Shown here piece by piece: positions 1,996 to 26,833 of a stretch of DNA of 35,680 bases. Numbering within the stretch: position 1 is the first letter of the stretch; each line of letters starts with the position of its first letter. This DNA is from a virus. The stretch is from the IMG/VR virus record IMGVR_UViG_3300027759_000228, positions 1 to 35,680 of that record; one strand, given 5' to 3'. The position numbers and the translations under genes are program-made. Below the pieces are notes generated by a model. That model was not told where the DNA came from. It saw only the letters and a list, made by a program, of their open reading frames with translations, and did not search any database.

Positions 1996-2003
1996 TATTT
2001 ATA
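1996..2003 (+). promoter_or_regulatory. TATTTATA putative late promoter
   Basis: Exact TATTTATA 22 nt before the ATG at 2026. It is followed by the leader element at 2006-2025. Confidence 0.55.
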
Positions 2004-2005
2004 GG

Positions 2006-2025
2006 TAAGTAAATTACCAAATATT
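2006..2025 (+). promoter_or_regulatory. mRNA leader element shared with 8371-8387 and complementary to the RNA at 26714-26797
   Basis: TAAGTAAATTACCAA (2006-2020) is identical to + strand 26747-26761. With one gap the similarity continues to the ATG. GGTAA-GTAAA-TTACC (2004-2018) can also form a small hairpin in the leader. The element covers the region where a ribosome would bind. Confidence 0.45.
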
Positions 2026-2277
2026 ATGAAAAAATTCTTTGCACAGTTGTTTAACGACAACAACACAATCAACGAAAAATCTGTTGTAGGCTTTTTAGCA
2101 TTTGTTATGATGACAGGGTTTGCAATTGCAGACATTGTTACAGGTTCATTAGGAAAAGACCTAGTAATCAACGAATTCATTTTTAATGCGTTCTTATGGC
2201 TAGTTTTAGGTTCTTTCGGAATCGGTTCCGTAGACAAATGGATTAACAAATCAAAAGGAGACTCAACAGAAGAGTAA
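2026..2277 (+). CDS. Small two-helix membrane protein, possible holin
   Basis: 83 aa. A short charged N-terminus (MKKFFAQLF) is followed by two hydrophobic segments, about residues 19-40 (VVGFLAFVMMTGFAIADIV) and 48-69 (INEFIFNAFLWLVLGSFGIG), then a hydrophilic KSKGD tail. Size, two helices and charged tail fit a class II holin or a small phage membrane protein. It is not beside the endolysin, and a second holin-like gene lies at 11712, so the role is uncertain. The gene has a late-type box, a conserved leader element and its own terminator, so it is a single-gene unit. Confidence 0.7.
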   Translation: MKKFFAQLFNDNNTINEKSVVGFLAFVMMTGFAIADIVTGSLGKDLVINEFIFNAFLWLVLGSFGIGSVDKWINKSKGDSTEE

Positions 2278-7202: not shown

Positions 7203-8045
7203 TTACGCAAGTAATTTATAATATTCTTTGAAATGTTTGATTCTGTCAGGTAAACCAATAGTACCTCCATTTACTCTCTTTGTGATTTGTGTTACTACTG
7301 CATCAGTTGCTCCACCATCAGCCATTTTATGTAATCCGTTTTTACTAAAGAACCAAGCAGCAGATAATAAAGCATAATGAGTTGAAACTTTTTCAGGGTT
7401 TGCGGTCATATCCTCATTAATTGATTTACCAAAAGCAACGTAATTATCTTTTCCTGTTAATTGAATATATCCGCGTCCACAATATTTTGAACCGTCTCCT
7501 GAAGATTCAGGACCATTACCCATTCTACCACCATAAACTCTGTTTGCAATTTTTTCGGGTTTTCTTTCATACGATTCAGCTAATCCTGCTTCTTTAAAAT
7601 ATTTTAAGAAAATACCTTTTAAACCTTTTGCGGAATAGTTTAGATTTTCTTTAGTTAATCTAAATCCACCTGACTCGTGACCACATTGTGCTAAAAAGTG
7701 AGCTAATCTTAATGGTGTATTGATTTCGAATTTAGCTGCGGTGTCAGGAATCTGTGCAATTACCGCATCAGGAATGTGACCTTTTAAATTCTCTAATTTT
7801 AATCCGCCAACAGATGCAACTGGTTTAACAACAGGTATAGAAGGTTCGGTAATCAATTGTTGAGAACCAAACATTTTATTCCAAGTACCTTCACCAACAA
7901 TTCCATCGGCTGCAAGGTCATTATCAATTTGCCATTTCTTTACTGCTTTTTCAGTACCAGGTCCAAAGGCACCATCGGCATTAAGACCTAATTTTTCTTG
8001 GAGTTTTTTAACGTCATCTCCTTTTGACCCAATTTTTAGTAGCAT
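7203..8045 (-). CDS. Endolysin: peptidoglycan-binding domain plus GH19 chitinase/lysozyme domain
   Basis: 280 aa. Residues 1-60 are a PG_binding_1 domain (SKGDDVKKLQEKLGL, DGAFGPGT, then DGIVGEGTW). After a Pro/Val linker, residues about 85-280 are a glycoside hydrolase family 19 domain. It has HESGGF with the likely catalytic E124, the helix NLNYSAKGL, GRGYIQLTG at 190-198 and a closing KRVNGG region. GH19 phage enzymes cut the glycan chains of peptidoglycan. There is no signal peptide, so release needs a holin; candidates are the membrane genes at 2026, 8085 and 11712. A TATTTATA box 16 nt upstream indicates late expression. Confidence 0.92.
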   Translation of the reverse strand: MLLKIGSKGDDVKKLQEKLGLNADGAFGPGTEKAVKKWQIDNDLAADGIVGEGTWNKMFGSQQLITEPSIPVVKPVASVGGLKLENLKGHIPDAVIAQIPDTAAKFEINTPLRLAHFLAQCGHESGGFRLTKENLNYSAKGLKGIFLKYFKEAGLAESYERKPEKIANRVYGGRMGNGPESSGDGSKYCGRGYIQLTGKDNYVAFGKSINEDMTANPEKVSTHYALLSAAWFFSKNGLHKMADGGATDAVVTQITKRVNGGTIGLPDRIKHFKEYYKLLA

Positions 8046-8061
8046 AGTAATTTACATTTAC

Positions 8062-8069
8062 TATAAATA
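8062..8069 (-). promoter_or_regulatory. TATTTATA putative late promoter for the endolysin
   Basis: Exact TATTTATA on the minus strand, 16 nt before the endolysin ATG. The leader that follows contains GTAAATTAC, as in the leader at 2006. Confidence 0.6.
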
Positions 8070-8362: not shown

Positions 8363-8370
8363 TATTTATT
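8363..8370 (+). promoter_or_regulatory. TATTTATT putative late promoter of the exported-protein operon
   Basis: TATTTATT directly precedes the leader element at 8371-8387 and lies 20 nt before the ATG at 8391. Confidence 0.5.
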
Positions 8371-8387
8371 ATTACCAAGATACTATC
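8371..8387 (+). promoter_or_regulatory. Leader element, 17-nt match to the RNA locus at 26754-26770
   Basis: ATTACCAAGATACTATC here is identical to + strand 26754-26770, so the minus-strand RNA at 26714-26797 is its exact antisense. It ends 3 nt before the ATG at 8391, where pairing would block initiation. Confidence 0.5.
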
Positions 8388-8390
8388 GCA

Positions 8391-8885
8391 ATGAATAAAG
8401 TTTTTCTATTCGTTATGAGTGCACTTTTATGTGTATCCCCTCATAACAACTCACAACAGACTCAAGAGATATGGGTGGATGCTGTCACGAACAAAATCCA
8501 AATAGGGTCTCTTGCGGGTAATCGAAACTTAGAGTTCGGTGTAAGAAATATCGTTGAAGAATTCTTACAAGAAAAAGACTACGACCTTAATCCTAATGCA
8601 AAAAATAAACTATCCGTTGAGTTAGTTTATTTGGACGTGCTCAAAACAAAATCTAACATATCTGTTTTTCACAAAAACGAAGAGTCTGTTGTAATCAGAC
8701 TCAAAGGTATATTAAAAAACGATAATAAAAAAATAAAAGAGGTGATTGTCGAAGAGGAATCATCGGAAATCTCTATGTCCACATTGATTGTGGATAATGG
8801 GGGTAAATTCAACCAAACATCGTTAAGTAATGCAATTAAAAAAGCTAGCGATAAGTTGGTTACTAAAATATTTGAAACAAAATAA
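8391..8885 (+). CDS. Exported CsgG-like protein (diverged paralogue of 12628)
   Basis: 164 aa with a signal peptide (NKVFLFVMSALLCVS) and probable cleavage near residue 21. The mature part shares GVRNIVEEFLQ, a VELVYLDV strand and a C-terminal FNQTSLSNAIKKASDKLV block with the CsgG-like protein at 12628 (GVTNIVLEYLD, VEIECYDY, FNQSTISISTKKALD). CsgG forms the outer-membrane export pore for curli subunits; a phage homologue could form a pore or assemble in the periplasm. This copy is shorter than usual and lacks the lipobox cysteine of true CsgG. First gene of a long late-type operon. Confidence 0.65.
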   Translation: MNKVFLFVMSALLCVSPHNNSQQTQEIWVDAVTNKIQIGSLAGNRNLEFGVRNIVEEFLQEKDYDLNPNAKNKLSVELVYLDVLKTKSNISVFHKNEESVVIRLKGILKNDNKKIKEVIVEEESSEISMSTLIVDNGGKFNQTSLSNAIKKASDKLVTKIFETK

Positions 8886-8888
8886 AAA

Positions 8889-10997
8889 ATGAAGAAATTT
8901 TTAACTTTAGGACTCTTATTAATGTCCTTAACATCATTTAGTCAAATTAAGTTTAAGTTTCCTGATACAAGAGTTCTTACCGATATAAATGGAGGAGTTA
9001 TTGATAGAGGAGACCAATTCGACGTTATGGTTCATGCGAACGGTAATGGAGATGCAACCACAAGACAATTAATGTTTGACCTTCAGTACGACCAAACAAA
9101 TTTTGAGGTAATCTCAATTAACCACACCGGTACGGGTGGAAATGGCGGAGTACTTCCTGCAGGTTCAAATATACAATTATCGTGGCAGAACTATCCAGGG
9201 TATTCTTACGCAGGAAATAGCACTTTTACAAACGGTACACAAAGATATGTTTCTAACGCAACATATGTTTACAACGCTACAGGGTCTAACGCAATTCTTA
9301 GGGCAACTTTAACATGGGCGACAAATTCAGCAATGCCCTTTAACGCTTATTCACAAATAATAATTGTGAGATTTAAATTAAAAGCGGGCTCAACATCAAA
9401 TTCATTTAACCCTGTTAAATTAAACTTTGTTGCGGGATGGAATGGTCAAGGAGTTGGTGTTGAAACATTTATGGATACTCCATTATCAACTGAAATTATA
9501 ATGAACCAAAACACTGGTAAACTTATAACGGCTAAAGTTGATATTAGTTCTAATTTATTTGCGTTATCAGATGTTAAAGTTTCCTTCAGAGATACTCTTA
9601 GTGGTATCGGACAATTGTTTAATGTTTTATCTAATGGTAATGTTGATATTAATCAATCATTGTTGGCTGAAAACAAAGTTTATGAAGTGTCTGTAATGCA
9701 TAGTTTGGATAAAACATATGCAATATACAACGGAGCAATTACAATATCGGATTTTACAACAGCACAAAGTGAATTTACATCAATGGGTTTAGATGGTAGT
9801 AACGGTCAGATATTAAAAACAGGTCAATCATTATACGCGGCAGATATTAATAGAAATAAAATTATAGATGGAGGAGATTTACCAAGATTATTAGGTCAGG
9901 TTGTTGGAATAGACACCCTTGTAACTGTTCCATCAGGATATGCGATGGGTAGTAACGGGTTTATGAGTTTACCTACTTGGAGAGCAACAGATGCGACAAG
10001 TATTGCAGGTTCAACTGAATGGTGTGTGGTAAATGTTAATGGATATGGTTCAGGTCAAGCAAGAGTTTACATTGATATGAGAGAATTTAACGGAATAAAT
10101 ACATTACCTGAACATATTAAAAGTTTACAATTGTTTGATTTGTATTCAGGACCTGTTGAGTTTATGAGTAAAGATGCTTCGTGGGCATTTTACAAAGTAC
10201 CATCAACTTTCTCAAATTTATCAACCTCAACATTTGCACCTTACATTAGAACTATGGGTAATAATGATTATGGTATTAAAGCAGAATTTTCGTTTAATAC
10301 TGACCCTTCTAATTCATGGGGTTCGATAACATCTTCTAATTGGAAGAATATAACATACCCTAAAACATATGTTAAAACAGGAGTATCAGGAACAAACGAA
10401 ATTGTTGATTTAAAATACCTTTTGTGGGCTGATGTGAATCGTTCACACTCTTCACAAGTTGTTACTACTTCAAATGGTACTAGTACTGTTCAAACAAACG
10501 CTGTGAATAGTTTAATGAGTAATACTGCGTTCATAACTATGTCAACACAGGCAGCATCGTTTATTAATACACCAAATGATGTTTCATCGATTGATGTTAA
10601 TTTATCTAATATAACTGTAACATCAAACAATGTTGAAATACCGGTATCACTTAACACTAATGGAATTTCTGTTGGGGGATTACAATTTGAATTTCAATAC
10701 GACCCATCAAAAATTAAATTTGAAGAGTTAAAATCAGAGGTTCCAAATTCTTGGTATGTTTTTGTTAATTCAAAAGACGGTAAAGTTAAGTTCGGTGGAA
10801 TTGACCAAAACAATAAACCAATAAACGGAACTAACATACCATTCAAAGTAAGATTTTCAACAATTGGTAATGGTGTTGACCTTTTAACATCGGTTAAAGT
10901 TTCTCCGACAATGGATGCTAGTGATTCCAAAGGAGTTCAATTAGGAATCAATTTAAATTCAACACAAATAAAATTAACAGGATATAAAAATTTTTAA
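8889..10997 (+). CDS. Large exported protein with cohesin-like and dockerin-like modules
   Basis: 702 aa. Residues 1-19 are a signal peptide ending SFSQ. About residues 25-205 form a cohesin-like beta sandwich (GDQFDVMVHANGNG, FDLQYDQTNFEVISI). At 317-340 lies one dockerin-like calcium loop and helix, ADINRNKIIDGGDLPRLLG, with D/N at loop positions; LLWADVNRSHSS later may be a second half. About residues 570-695 are a second cohesin-like domain (VEIPVSLNTNGISVGGLQFE, shortened here, then YDPSKIKFEEL). Cohesin-dockerin pairs join extracellular proteins. Having both in one chain suggests self-assembly or attachment to host surface scaffolds. No membrane anchor is visible. It starts 3 nt after the preceding gene. 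Confidence 0.75.
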   Translation: MKKFLTLGLLLMSLTSFSQIKFKFPDTRVLTDINGGVIDRGDQFDVMVHANGNGDATTRQLMFDLQYDQTNFEVISINHTGTGGNGGVLPAGSNIQLSWQNYPGYSYAGNSTFTNGTQRYVSNATYVYNATGSNAILRATLTWATNSAMPFNAYSQIIIVRFKLKAGSTSNSFNPVKLNFVAGWNGQGVGVETFMDTPLSTEIIMNQNTGKLITAKVDISSNLFALSDVKVSFRDTLSGIGQLFNVLSNGNVDINQSLLAENKVYEVSVMHSLDKTYAIYNGAITISDFTTAQSEFTSMGLDGSNGQILKTGQSLYAADINRNKIIDGGDLPRLLGQVVGIDTLVTVPSGYAMGSNGFMSLPTWRATDATSIAGSTEWCVVNVNGYGSGQARVYIDMREFNGINTLPEHIKSLQLFDLYSGPVEFMSKDASWAFYKVPSTFSNLSTSTFAPYIRTMGNNDYGIKAEFSFNTDPSNSWGSITSSNWKNITYPKTYVKTGVSGTNEIVDLKYLLWADVNRSHSSQVVTTSNGTSTVQTNAVNSLMSNTAFITMSTQAASFINTPNDVSSIDVNLSNITVTSNNVEIPVSLNTNGISVGGLQFEFQYDPSKIKFEELKSEVPNSWYVFVNSKDGKVKFGGIDQNNKPINGTNIPFKVRFSTIGNGVDLLTSVKVSPTMDASDSKGVQLGINLNSTQIKLTGYKNF

Positions 10998-10999
10998 TT

Positions 11000-11371
11000 A
11001 TGAAAAGAATAGATAGAATATTAGGTTTAGGGTTTTTAGTCGCCCTTTTAGCTTTGAGTTGTAAAAAGGCGGTTTTACAACAACCACAAATTATTGACTT
11101 GGGTACTACCTCAACATCAACAGCAATTAAATCGATTGCCCAAACAGGTAACATAGTAACGGCTGAATTTGAAACAACAATAGGTGCAAAGTATTCAGTA
11201 CAAATAATACCTTTTGGAAGCGAAACACCTTCAAAGAAAGAAGGATTTACCGCAACTGAAACTGTTACAAAGAAAGTATATGATTTATCAGAATTATCAA
11301 AAAAAGACTATGACTTGGTGTTCATAGACATCAGCGGTAAGGAAGTAAAATACCCAATCGTAATAAAATAA
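11000..11371 (+). CDS. Lipoprotein of unknown function
   Basis: 123 aa. The N-terminus MKRIDRILGLGFLVALLALS is followed by CKK, a lipobox with the lipidated Cys at residue 21. The mature part is a single beta-rich domain (TAEFETTIGAKYSVQIIPF, EVKYPIVIK) resembling a small Ig-like fold. It begins 2 nt after the cohesin-like gene, so the two products may work together at the outer membrane. A phage lipoprotein in a late unit near an endolysin could serve as an outer-membrane spanin subunit, but it is larger than usual. Confidence 0.7.
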   Translation: MKRIDRILGLGFLVALLALSCKKAVLQQPQIIDLGTTSTSTAIKSIAQTGNIVTAEFETTIGAKYSVQIIPFGSETPSKKEGFTATETVTKKVYDLSELSKKDYDLVFIDISGKEVKYPIVIK

Positions 11372-11389
11372 AAATAAAAAAATAAAAAA

Positions 11390-11707
11390 ATGTCAGAAGA
11401 AGAAAAATCAGAAAGTACCGGTGGTTCAATGAAAAATATAATCATCGGATTTATTTCAACCATCACATTAGGTGTAGGAGGTTGGATAACAACTAAATTA
11501 ACAGGTGGAGAGGAAGAAAAACCTGCAACTCAACAAGCAGCACCTGTAATCAACATTACAAACTCTAATCAACAAGCGGCAGGTAAGACTGTAATTGTTA
11601 ACGGAGGTGGTGGAAATGGAACTAAAGTATCAAATCCTGCACCTGCACCAAAACCTAAACCTAAAAAAGATGGTGACGAATTCAAAGAGGAAGCACCTAA
11701 ATGGTAA
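11390..11707 (+). CDS. Single-pass membrane protein with Gly/Pro/Lys tail
   Basis: 105 aa. An acidic N-terminus (MSEEEKSEST) precedes one hydrophobic helix at about 16-36 (NIIIGFISTITLGVGGWITT). A disordered region with QQAAPVINITNSNQQAAG, a GGGGNG turn and a PAPAPKPKPKKD linker follows. The linker type is typical of periplasm-spanning proteins. It could bridge inner membrane and cell wall or outer membrane in the same operon. No family assignment. Confidence 0.65.
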   Translation: MSEEEKSESTGGSMKNIIIGFISTITLGVGGWITTKLTGGEEEKPATQQAAPVINITNSNQQAAGKTVIVNGGGGNGTKVSNPAPAPKPKPKKDGDEFKEEAPKW

Positions 11708-11711
11708 TTTT

Positions 11712-12254
11712 ATGAGTAGTAATCAACAACAAACAGGATTTAAAGATTTATTATTTTCGGTAATGCAAAGAAGATGGTTTATTACTGCCATCGTATTATT
11801 CACCTTTTTTGGTACAATCCTTGCAATATTTGCAGCAATTTTAGGTAAGACTCCAATGTCAGGTGAGTGGAAAGAACTATTACTTTTATTGTTGGGAGCA
11901 TTTATCGGAAGTTATGGTAAAATCATAGACTACTGGTTTAGTGACCAAGATAAAGATAAGATGTTAGTTCAAAAAATGGATGAAGAGGATGGAATGTCAT
12001 TATCAGACACAGGTGCTGGAGGACCTAAAACTCCGTTACCAAGTATCATAGTTAGTCCCATAGAAAATACCATAGATAAAGGAGTTGAAATAGACGAAGA
12101 TGGTGATGGTGTAATGGATGGGATTGATAACGATGGCGACGGTGTTATTGATGAATATTTTGACCATAGAAACTGTCAACACGTATGGGGTGACTCAGAC
12201 GGAGATGGTGATGAAGAGTGTTTGATTTGTGGTAAAATCAAAGACGTAGAATAA
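11712..12254 (+). CDS. Holin-like membrane protein with calcium-loop and CxxC tail
   Basis: 180 aa from the ATG 4 nt after the preceding gene. Two hydrophobic helices lie at about 21-44 (FITAIVLFTFFGTILAIFAA) and 51-72 (ELLLLLLGAFIGSYGKIID), a holin-like pair. The tail has thrombospondin-3/EF-hand-like Asp repeats (DEDGDGVMDGIDNDGDGVID) and then CQHVW--DGDEECLICGK, a possible zinc ribbon of CxH and CxxC type. Calcium-binding repeats on a holin-like protein are unusual. Membrane insertion is well supported; a lysis role is inferred. Confidence 0.65.
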   Translation: MSSNQQQTGFKDLLFSVMQRRWFITAIVLFTFFGTILAIFAAILGKTPMSGEWKELLLLLLGAFIGSYGKIIDYWFSDQDKDKMLVQKMDEEDGMSLSDTGAGGPKTPLPSIIVSPIENTIDKGVEIDEDGDGVMDGIDNDGDGVIDEYFDHRNCQHVWGDSDGDGDEECLICGKIKDVE

Positions 12255-17951: not shown

Positions 17952-17955
17952 GTTG

Positions 17956-18041
17956 CGGAGAGAGTAGGATTCGAACCCACGGACCTGTTACAGTCTACAG
18001 TTTTCAAGACTGTCGCGATAGACCAACTCTGCCATCTCTCC
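17956..18041 (-). tRNA. tRNA-Ser(UGA)
   Basis: A complete class II tRNA: acceptor GGAGAGA (18041-18035) / TCTCTCC (17963-17957). The anticodon arm is ACAGT-CTTGAAA-ACTGT with U33 and anticodon UGA. The long variable arm has GAC/GTC pairing, the T-arm is GTGGG-TTCGAAT-CCTAC, and the discriminator is G. CCA is not encoded. First gene of the minus-strand tRNA unit. Confidence 0.92.
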
Positions 18042-26452: not shown

Positions 26453-26707
26453 TTATTCTGAAATTAAAAAAACTGGATTTTGGTCTCCAGCAAATAAACC
26501 TAAAATGTTGTATTCGTAGAATTCAACAGCGTCAATAGAGGACATCCCGTCCCTCTCTTCAAGAATACGAAGAATTTTGTTTTTGGAGTATAAGATTCTC
26601 GGCCCATTACCGAATTCTTCAACAATTCCGATAATTGCGTCATCCAAACCGTCTAAAATAACGGCTCCTTCGGCAAATTCGTGTATATCGTAATTGTTGG
26701 TTATCAT
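26453..26707 (-). CDS. Conserved-type small acidic protein, function unknown
   Basis: 84 aa from the ATG at 26707; the longer in-frame reading crosses the RNA element upstream. DIHEFAEGAVILDGLDDAII and GIVEEFGNGPRILYS then SKNKILRILEERDGMSSIDA and FYEYNILGLFAGDQNPVFL match a small protein I recall from many phages and bacteria, with no known role. The gene follows a structured RNA with a T-run that ends 7 nt before its ATG, so it may be controlled by attenuation. Confidence 0.7.
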   Translation of the reverse strand: MITNNYDIHEFAEGAVILDGLDDAIIGIVEEFGNGPRILYSKNKILRILEERDGMSSIDAVEFYEYNILGLFAGDQNPVFLISE

Positions 26708-26714
26708 ATAAATA
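26707..26714 (-). promoter_or_regulatory. TATTTATA overlapping the start codon
   Basis: Minus-strand TATTTATA whose last A is the A of the ATG at 26707. It matches the late octamer but leaves no room for a transcript start, so it may be chance sequence after the T-run. Confidence 0.25.
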
Positions 26715-26797
26715 AAAAAAAAACAAGTGAATTCCATTCGAGGCGATAAGTAAATTACCAAGATACTATCAAGAGGAAGGAGAGGTTCACTTGTTTC
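26714..26797 (-). ncRNA. Putative small RNA or leader attenuator, antisense to two late leaders
   Basis: After a host-type promoter the predicted transcript begins near 26797. AAACAAGTGAA (26796-26786) pairs perfectly with TTCACTTGTTT (26731-26721), and T10 (26723-26714) follows: an 11-bp closing stem with terminator. The loop of about 54 nt holds a pyrimidine run CCTCTCCTTCCTCTT and GATAGTATCTTGGTAATTTA (26770 downward). The latter is complementary over 17 nt to 8371-8387 and over 15 nt to 2006-2020, both just upstream of start codons. It may be a trans-acting RNA that silences late messages, an attenuator for the gene at 26707, or both. No coding frame of note lies in it. Confidence 0.55.
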
Positions 26798-26801
26798 TAT
26801 A

Positions 26802-26833
26802 CAAAAGTAGAGTTAATTCAAAATAATGTCAAA
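26802..26833 (-). promoter_or_regulatory. Host-type promoter, TTTG-N20-TACTTTTG
   Basis: On the minus strand TTTG (26833-26830), a 20-nt spacer and TACTTTTG (26809-26802). The same -7 octamer serves the tRNA cluster. It drives the putative small RNA. Confidence 0.7.

Follow-up and report, generated by a model that had tools for sequence, protein, structure and literature searches.

The window, which is the whole 35,680-nucleotide stretch of viral DNA that was analysed (positions 1 to 35,680 of IMG/VR record IMGVR_UViG_3300027759_000228), carries on its minus strand a compact small-RNA locus with its own promoter and terminator. The elements of this locus are as follows.

26830-26833, minus strand: TTTG, the -33 element of a Bacteroidetes-type promoter
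26802-26809, minus strand: TACTTTTG, the -7 element of the same promoter, 20 nt after TTTG and conserved in relatives
26714-26797, minus strand: predicted small RNA of about 84 nt
26786-26796, minus strand: 5' arm of the closing stem, AAACAAGTGAA
26721-26731, minus strand: 3' arm of the closing stem, TTCACTTGTTT
26744-26770, minus strand: conserved antisense loop, GATAGTATCTTGGTAATTTACTTATCG
26714-26723, minus strand: T10, the end of the intrinsic terminator, 6 nt before the ATG at 26707 of the downstream gene (P0001, encoding an 84-aa protein)

The RNA folds at -20.3 kcal/mol, compared with -10.6 +/- 2.6 kcal/mol for dinucleotide shuffles (z of -3.8, with 0 of 200 shuffles as good). A search against Rfam release 15 identified only a tRNA in the window, a tRNA-Ser (UGA) gene at 17955-18041 on the minus strand; the best match at the RNA has an E value of 4.1, far below the gathering threshold. 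The loop is complementary to leaders elsewhere in the window, and the features of these leaders and their genes are as follows.

8363-8369, plus strand: TATTTAT box of the 8391 operon
8371-8387, plus strand: 17-nt target site before the ATG at 8391
8391-8885, plus strand: target gene encoding an exported protein with a predicted LptE/PelC-like fold
1996-2002, plus strand: TATTTAT box of the 2026 gene
2006-2020, plus strand: 15-nt target site before the ATG at 2026, from which pairing can extend towards the ATG
2026-2277, plus strand: target gene encoding an 83-aa holin-like protein with two hydrophobic segments
8063-8069, minus strand: TATTTAT box of the endolysin gene
8037-8055, minus strand: weaker target site spanning the endolysin start codon, GTAAATTACTATGCTACTA aligned to the loop complement
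7203-8045, minus strand: target gene encoding an endolysin (PG_binding_1 and GH19)

The 17-nt and 15-nt matches are exact and are the two longest complements among 73 ORF leaders. A sequence-only reading of this DNA had described the promoter, the stem, the T-run and these two matches, and its observation is confirmed: every element lies where it was placed. The one correction is that there are more than two targets, as the endolysin site had been missed. That reading had named matches no better than shuffled controls as grounds for rejecting its proposal; none of 300 shuffled RNAs gave any leader match of 15 nt or more. The TATTTAT sequence is a directional box in these phages, being found in the 45 nt upstream of 68-94 of about 330 ORFs in each ~320-kb relative, compared with 18-25 for the opposite orientation and 1-5 inside ORFs.

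To assess whether the RNA is conserved, IMG/VR was scanned for the 17-mer and for the downstream protein. These scans gave about 45 distinct RNA sequences with the same anatomy, all from uncultured phages. The stems differ widely, for example ACAAGTGAG/CTCACTTGT, AGGGAGAGATTCA/TGAATTTCTCCC and GACAGGTTGGTCTA/TAGATTGACCTGTT, yet they always pair. A MAFFT alignment misaligned the 3' arm, so that RNAalifold found no pairs, and an arm-swap test was used instead: own arms average -19.1 kcal/mol, whereas arms swapped between dissimilar sequences average -10.2 kcal/mol. The loop core AGTATC(T/C)TGGTA..TTA is invariant in 45 sequences. Part of this invariance is by construction, since the first scan required an exact 17-mer, but the copies found through the downstream protein were not selected in this way. 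A TTTGAC/TAnnTT-type promoter lies upstream of all 45 aligned RNAs and a U-tract is present in most relatives. The hits at loci L003, L004, L039 and L139 lack the hairpin and were taken as chance matches, and three other loop-like hits are not hairpins of this kind. No isolate phage in INPHARED carries the loop. A single hit (L281) was obtained among 84,980 bacterial and archaeal genomes; it lacks an obvious closing stem and looks like chance. The counts come from related sequences and are therefore not independent, and the contigs are mostly fragments. The persistence of the closing stem in relatives had been set out in advance as a condition for the proposal to stand, and the stem is kept, with compensation.

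The genomic context bears on whether the hairpin could instead be a cis-acting leader or attenuator of P0001, with the matches elsewhere being incidental. The short distance between the T-run and the ATG, and the presence of P0001 downstream in most relatives, are consistent with such a role, and attenuation of this gene had been raised as a side idea in the sequence-only reading. However, the linkage is not constant: a phosphoesterase gene, a 172-aa gene or a 71-aa gene can also follow the RNA, giving at least four downstream gene types, and P0001 relatives occur without the RNA in 33 contigs. Closely similar loci with and without the RNA between promoter and downstream gene (L070 and L072 versus L092) suggest gain or loss of the RNA as a unit. 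The RNA is therefore an independent unit; attenuation of P0001 is not needed to explain it and the cis-acting reading is very unlikely, the more so as the matches to other leaders are far beyond chance and gene-specific.

The target sites were then examined across relatives. In 48 RNA-bearing or related contigs, the pattern TATTTATN{0,8}ACCAAGA (class 1) was found in 24, against two matches of the reversed control, nearly always with exactly 4 nt between the box and ACCAAGA. Raw k-mer enrichment behind TATTTAT was dominated by redundancy and was not used. IMG/VR-wide, 73 TATTTATNNNTACCAAGATACTA sites lie before 58 homologues of the 8391 gene, seven genes for a 100-aa protein with one hydrophobic segment and a coiled-coil-like tail, five PAS-like genes and three others or unresolved. 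Ten of 14 further contigs with a target site had no strict loop match, although most are fragments; one contig of 162.8 kb (record G080, locus L295) has a class-1 site but no strict loop match and may be incomplete or carry a diverged RNA. A second site (class 2), TATTTATTGGTAAGTAAATTACCAA, was matched in 17 of the 48 contigs, with no control matches, and in most of these it precedes homologues of the 2026 gene. In the records G039 and G017 this slot holds a different, nonhomologous small membrane protein behind the same kind of site. In L176, L182, L184, L186 and L174 a sense-strand loop-like sequence (GTAGTATCTTAGTAAAGTTTT or similar) lies just upstream of the promoter box of the holin-slot gene. 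A third site, AAATAAATTACTATGATACTA and relatives, lies across the endolysin start. When aligned to the complement of the loop, holin-like leaders match up to 22 of 23 positions and endolysin leaders 19 of 21.

The specificity of pairing was assessed by scoring duplexes with the TATTTAT leaders of three ~320-kb genomes. In the whole records G034 and G029 (130 and 142 leaders) the three best duplexes are the holin-like, 8391-type and endolysin leaders, at -20.9 to -27.3 kcal/mol; the next best are -13.5 and -16.0, and the best of 2600 and 2840 shuffled leaders are -18.7 and -19.6. In the third, G017, only the 8391-type leader (-18.8) stands out, with the holin-slot leader scoring -14.4 and the endolysin absent from the top 12. 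In the window, genome-wide duplex energy without a promoter filter was too noisy, and the endolysin pairing is weak, with cofolding predicting no net gain, although the site is stronger in relatives. Relatives without the RNA keep the genes but not the sites: endolysin leaders score -4.8 to -9.6, against mostly -14 to -23, and holin-like leaders -10.8 to -15.1, against -19.6 to -29.6. Some RNA-bearing phages also have endolysin leaders without the site (L148, L150, L157 and L167). Where the loop has U instead of C at one position endolysin leaders have A, and where it has C they mostly have G (7 of 10 against 0 of 7; p of 0.01), although these counts were collapsed by hand and are not corrected for relatedness. 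A natural loop variant (L092, AGTATCCTGGTA) was checked for a matching TACCAGGATACT target; none was found in IMG/VR, and in its own 53-kb contig only the RNA locus itself matched, so that this comparison was uninformative. Retention of the complementarity in related phages, the absence of which would have counted against the sequence-only reading, is observed.

These comparisons also bear on the possibility that the shared TACCAAGATACT element is a DNA-level extension of a promoter subclass (an initially transcribed sequence or activator site) that the RNA loop resembles for another reason. The 4-nt spacing from TATTTAT is consistent with this. However, the second site class uses a different part of the loop with different spacing, the endolysin site spans the start codon, the sites are missing in RNA-less phages that keep the genes and mostly the TATTTAT box, and the loop lies in an RNA hairpin kept by compensatory change. 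We consider this explanation very unlikely.

The identities of the targets point to lysis. The window endolysin has PG_binding_1 and GH19 domains (Pfam) and matches PHROG 181 endolysin at 1.2e-70. The homologue of the 2026 protein in the cultured Flavobacterium phage immuto 2-6A lies immediately upstream of the endolysin and holin genes. The 8391 protein looks exported, and its AlphaFold2 model, of moderate confidence (mean pLDDT of 72), has an LptE/PelC-type fold (Foldseek E value of about 1e-5); its role in lysis is a guess from position and co-regulation. The 8391 gene lies next to and divergent from the endolysin gene in the window, G034 and G017, and begins an operon (8391-12254) of exported, lipoprotein-like and membrane proteins, the 702-aa member of which has a cohesin domain match. 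In some phages a spanin-like protein is added: the 100-103-aa protein (L155, L157, L146 and L114), which resembles Rz-like spanins only weakly (PHROG 739, E value of 0.04), has the site at the 5' end of a structured leader. In L159, L162 and L165 (records G004, G024 and G003) a PAS-domain gene carries the same TATTTAT-NNNT-ACCAAGATACTATC leader followed by a hairpin, mostly 87 nt or more before its start, and may be a phage sensor in the same regulon.

Taken together, the data are best explained by an independent, trans-acting antisense small RNA gene of phages that are probably virulent and probably infect Bacteroidetes, to which we assign a probability of roughly 0.74. In this view, a host-type promoter makes an ~84-nt hairpin RNA that presents one nearly invariant loop of ~24 nt, and leaders transcribed from TATTTAT-type phage promoters in front of the lysis genes carry complementary copies of that loop on or just before the start codon. 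The 8391 type would use the 5' half of the loop, the holin type nearly all of it and the endolysin nearly all of it with the AUG inside. Pairing would most likely block ribosome entry and keep lysis proteins low until target mRNA from the phage promoters exceeds the RNA or the RNA declines, acting as a lysis-timing threshold. The pairing and the targets are well supported comparatively. The RNA family, stem compensation, loop and site conservation, target identity and co-occurrence are demonstrated here at the level of sequence, whereas transcription, duplex formation in the cell, repression rather than activation and early versus late timing are inferred. Transcription from 26797, the remaining condition named in the sequence-only reading, was not examined, no reporter data were available and chaperone dependence (Hfq or other) was not measured. 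The host and the virulent lifestyle are inferred from the promoter type, Flavobacterium-phage relatives and the absence from bacterial genomes, and the assignment of TATTTAT as a late promoter rests on its resemblance to T4-type late boxes. The interpretation put forward in the sequence-only reading, a phage RNA from a host-type promoter masking late start sites as a timing switch, is supported, and fits the three main targets, in which the duplex covers or abuts the AUG. In the spanin-like and PAS minority, however, the site is mostly 42-89 nt from the ATG, so that masking of the start codon is not the whole story.

The main alternative is that the RNA pairs with the same leaders but activates or stabilizes the mRNAs, for example by protecting their 5' ends. 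Class-1 sites keep a fixed distance from the promoter box, and hence from the likely 5' end of the transcript, while the distance to the ATG varies from 26 to 89 nt or more; spanin-like and PAS leaders have hairpins near the site, and the 2026 leader can form a small hairpin that pairing would open. On the other hand, the predicted hairpin of the 2026 leader does not include its start codon, and the position of the duplex at the start codon in the main targets argues against activation, which we regard as unlikely. It is also conceivable, but very unlikely, that the RNA acts mainly on a host RNA or protein and that the phage-leader matches are secondary. Some invariant loop positions are unpaired in any one target, and host RNAs were not tested, but the union of the phage target sites covers the invariant loop core and the loop is absent from bacterial genomes apart from the one chance-like hit.

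A broader reading, judged somewhat more likely than not, is an RNA-based lysis timer in which the one conserved loop acts as a shared antisense key for the lysis gene set (endolysin, holin-like, spanin-like, exported LptE-fold protein and, in some phages, a PAS-domain gene) of a group of large phages probably infecting Bacteroidetes, extending even to the nonhomologous holin-slot genes of G017 and G039. Lysis timing in virulent phages is usually explained by holin properties and antiholin proteins. A conserved RNA that pairs with endolysin, holin-like and exported-protein leaders would be an RNA layer of lysis control, a new RNA family with a clear target set and an example of antisense regulation in phages of hosts that generally lack Hfq.

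Antisense RNAs of phages are already known, and a 2025 review of phage sRNAs (PMC12197685) lists PAK_P4as15, sar, OOP, aQ, VpdS and PreS; in the sections examined, none is described as a short trans-acting RNA with a conserved lysis target set, and literature searches, confined to a partial collection of open-licence papers, found no RNA of this kind. PAK_P4as15 of Pseudomonas phage PAK_P4 is likewise proposed to repress an endolysin and delay lysis, but it is about 550 nt long and cis-encoded over one gene, whereas the RNA described here is a short hairpin encoded at 26714-26797, away from its several lysis-type targets at 2006, 8045 and 8371. P22 sar RNA and lambda OOP RNA are also short phage antisense RNAs that act on phage mRNAs (PMC12197685), but they have one target each and serve temperate-phage decisions, whereas here there are several lysis-type targets in phages that are probably virulent. 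VpdS of phage VP882 and PreS of lambda are trans-acting phage small RNAs (PMC12197685), but they are Hfq-dependent and their described targets are host sRNAs, dnaN and other phage or host mRNAs rather than a lysis set. Among protein lysis timers, the T4 antiholin RI acting with holin T (PMC11413866) similarly delays lysis in a large virulent phage, but through protein-protein control of the holin, in contrast to the RNA pairing to several mRNAs proposed here.
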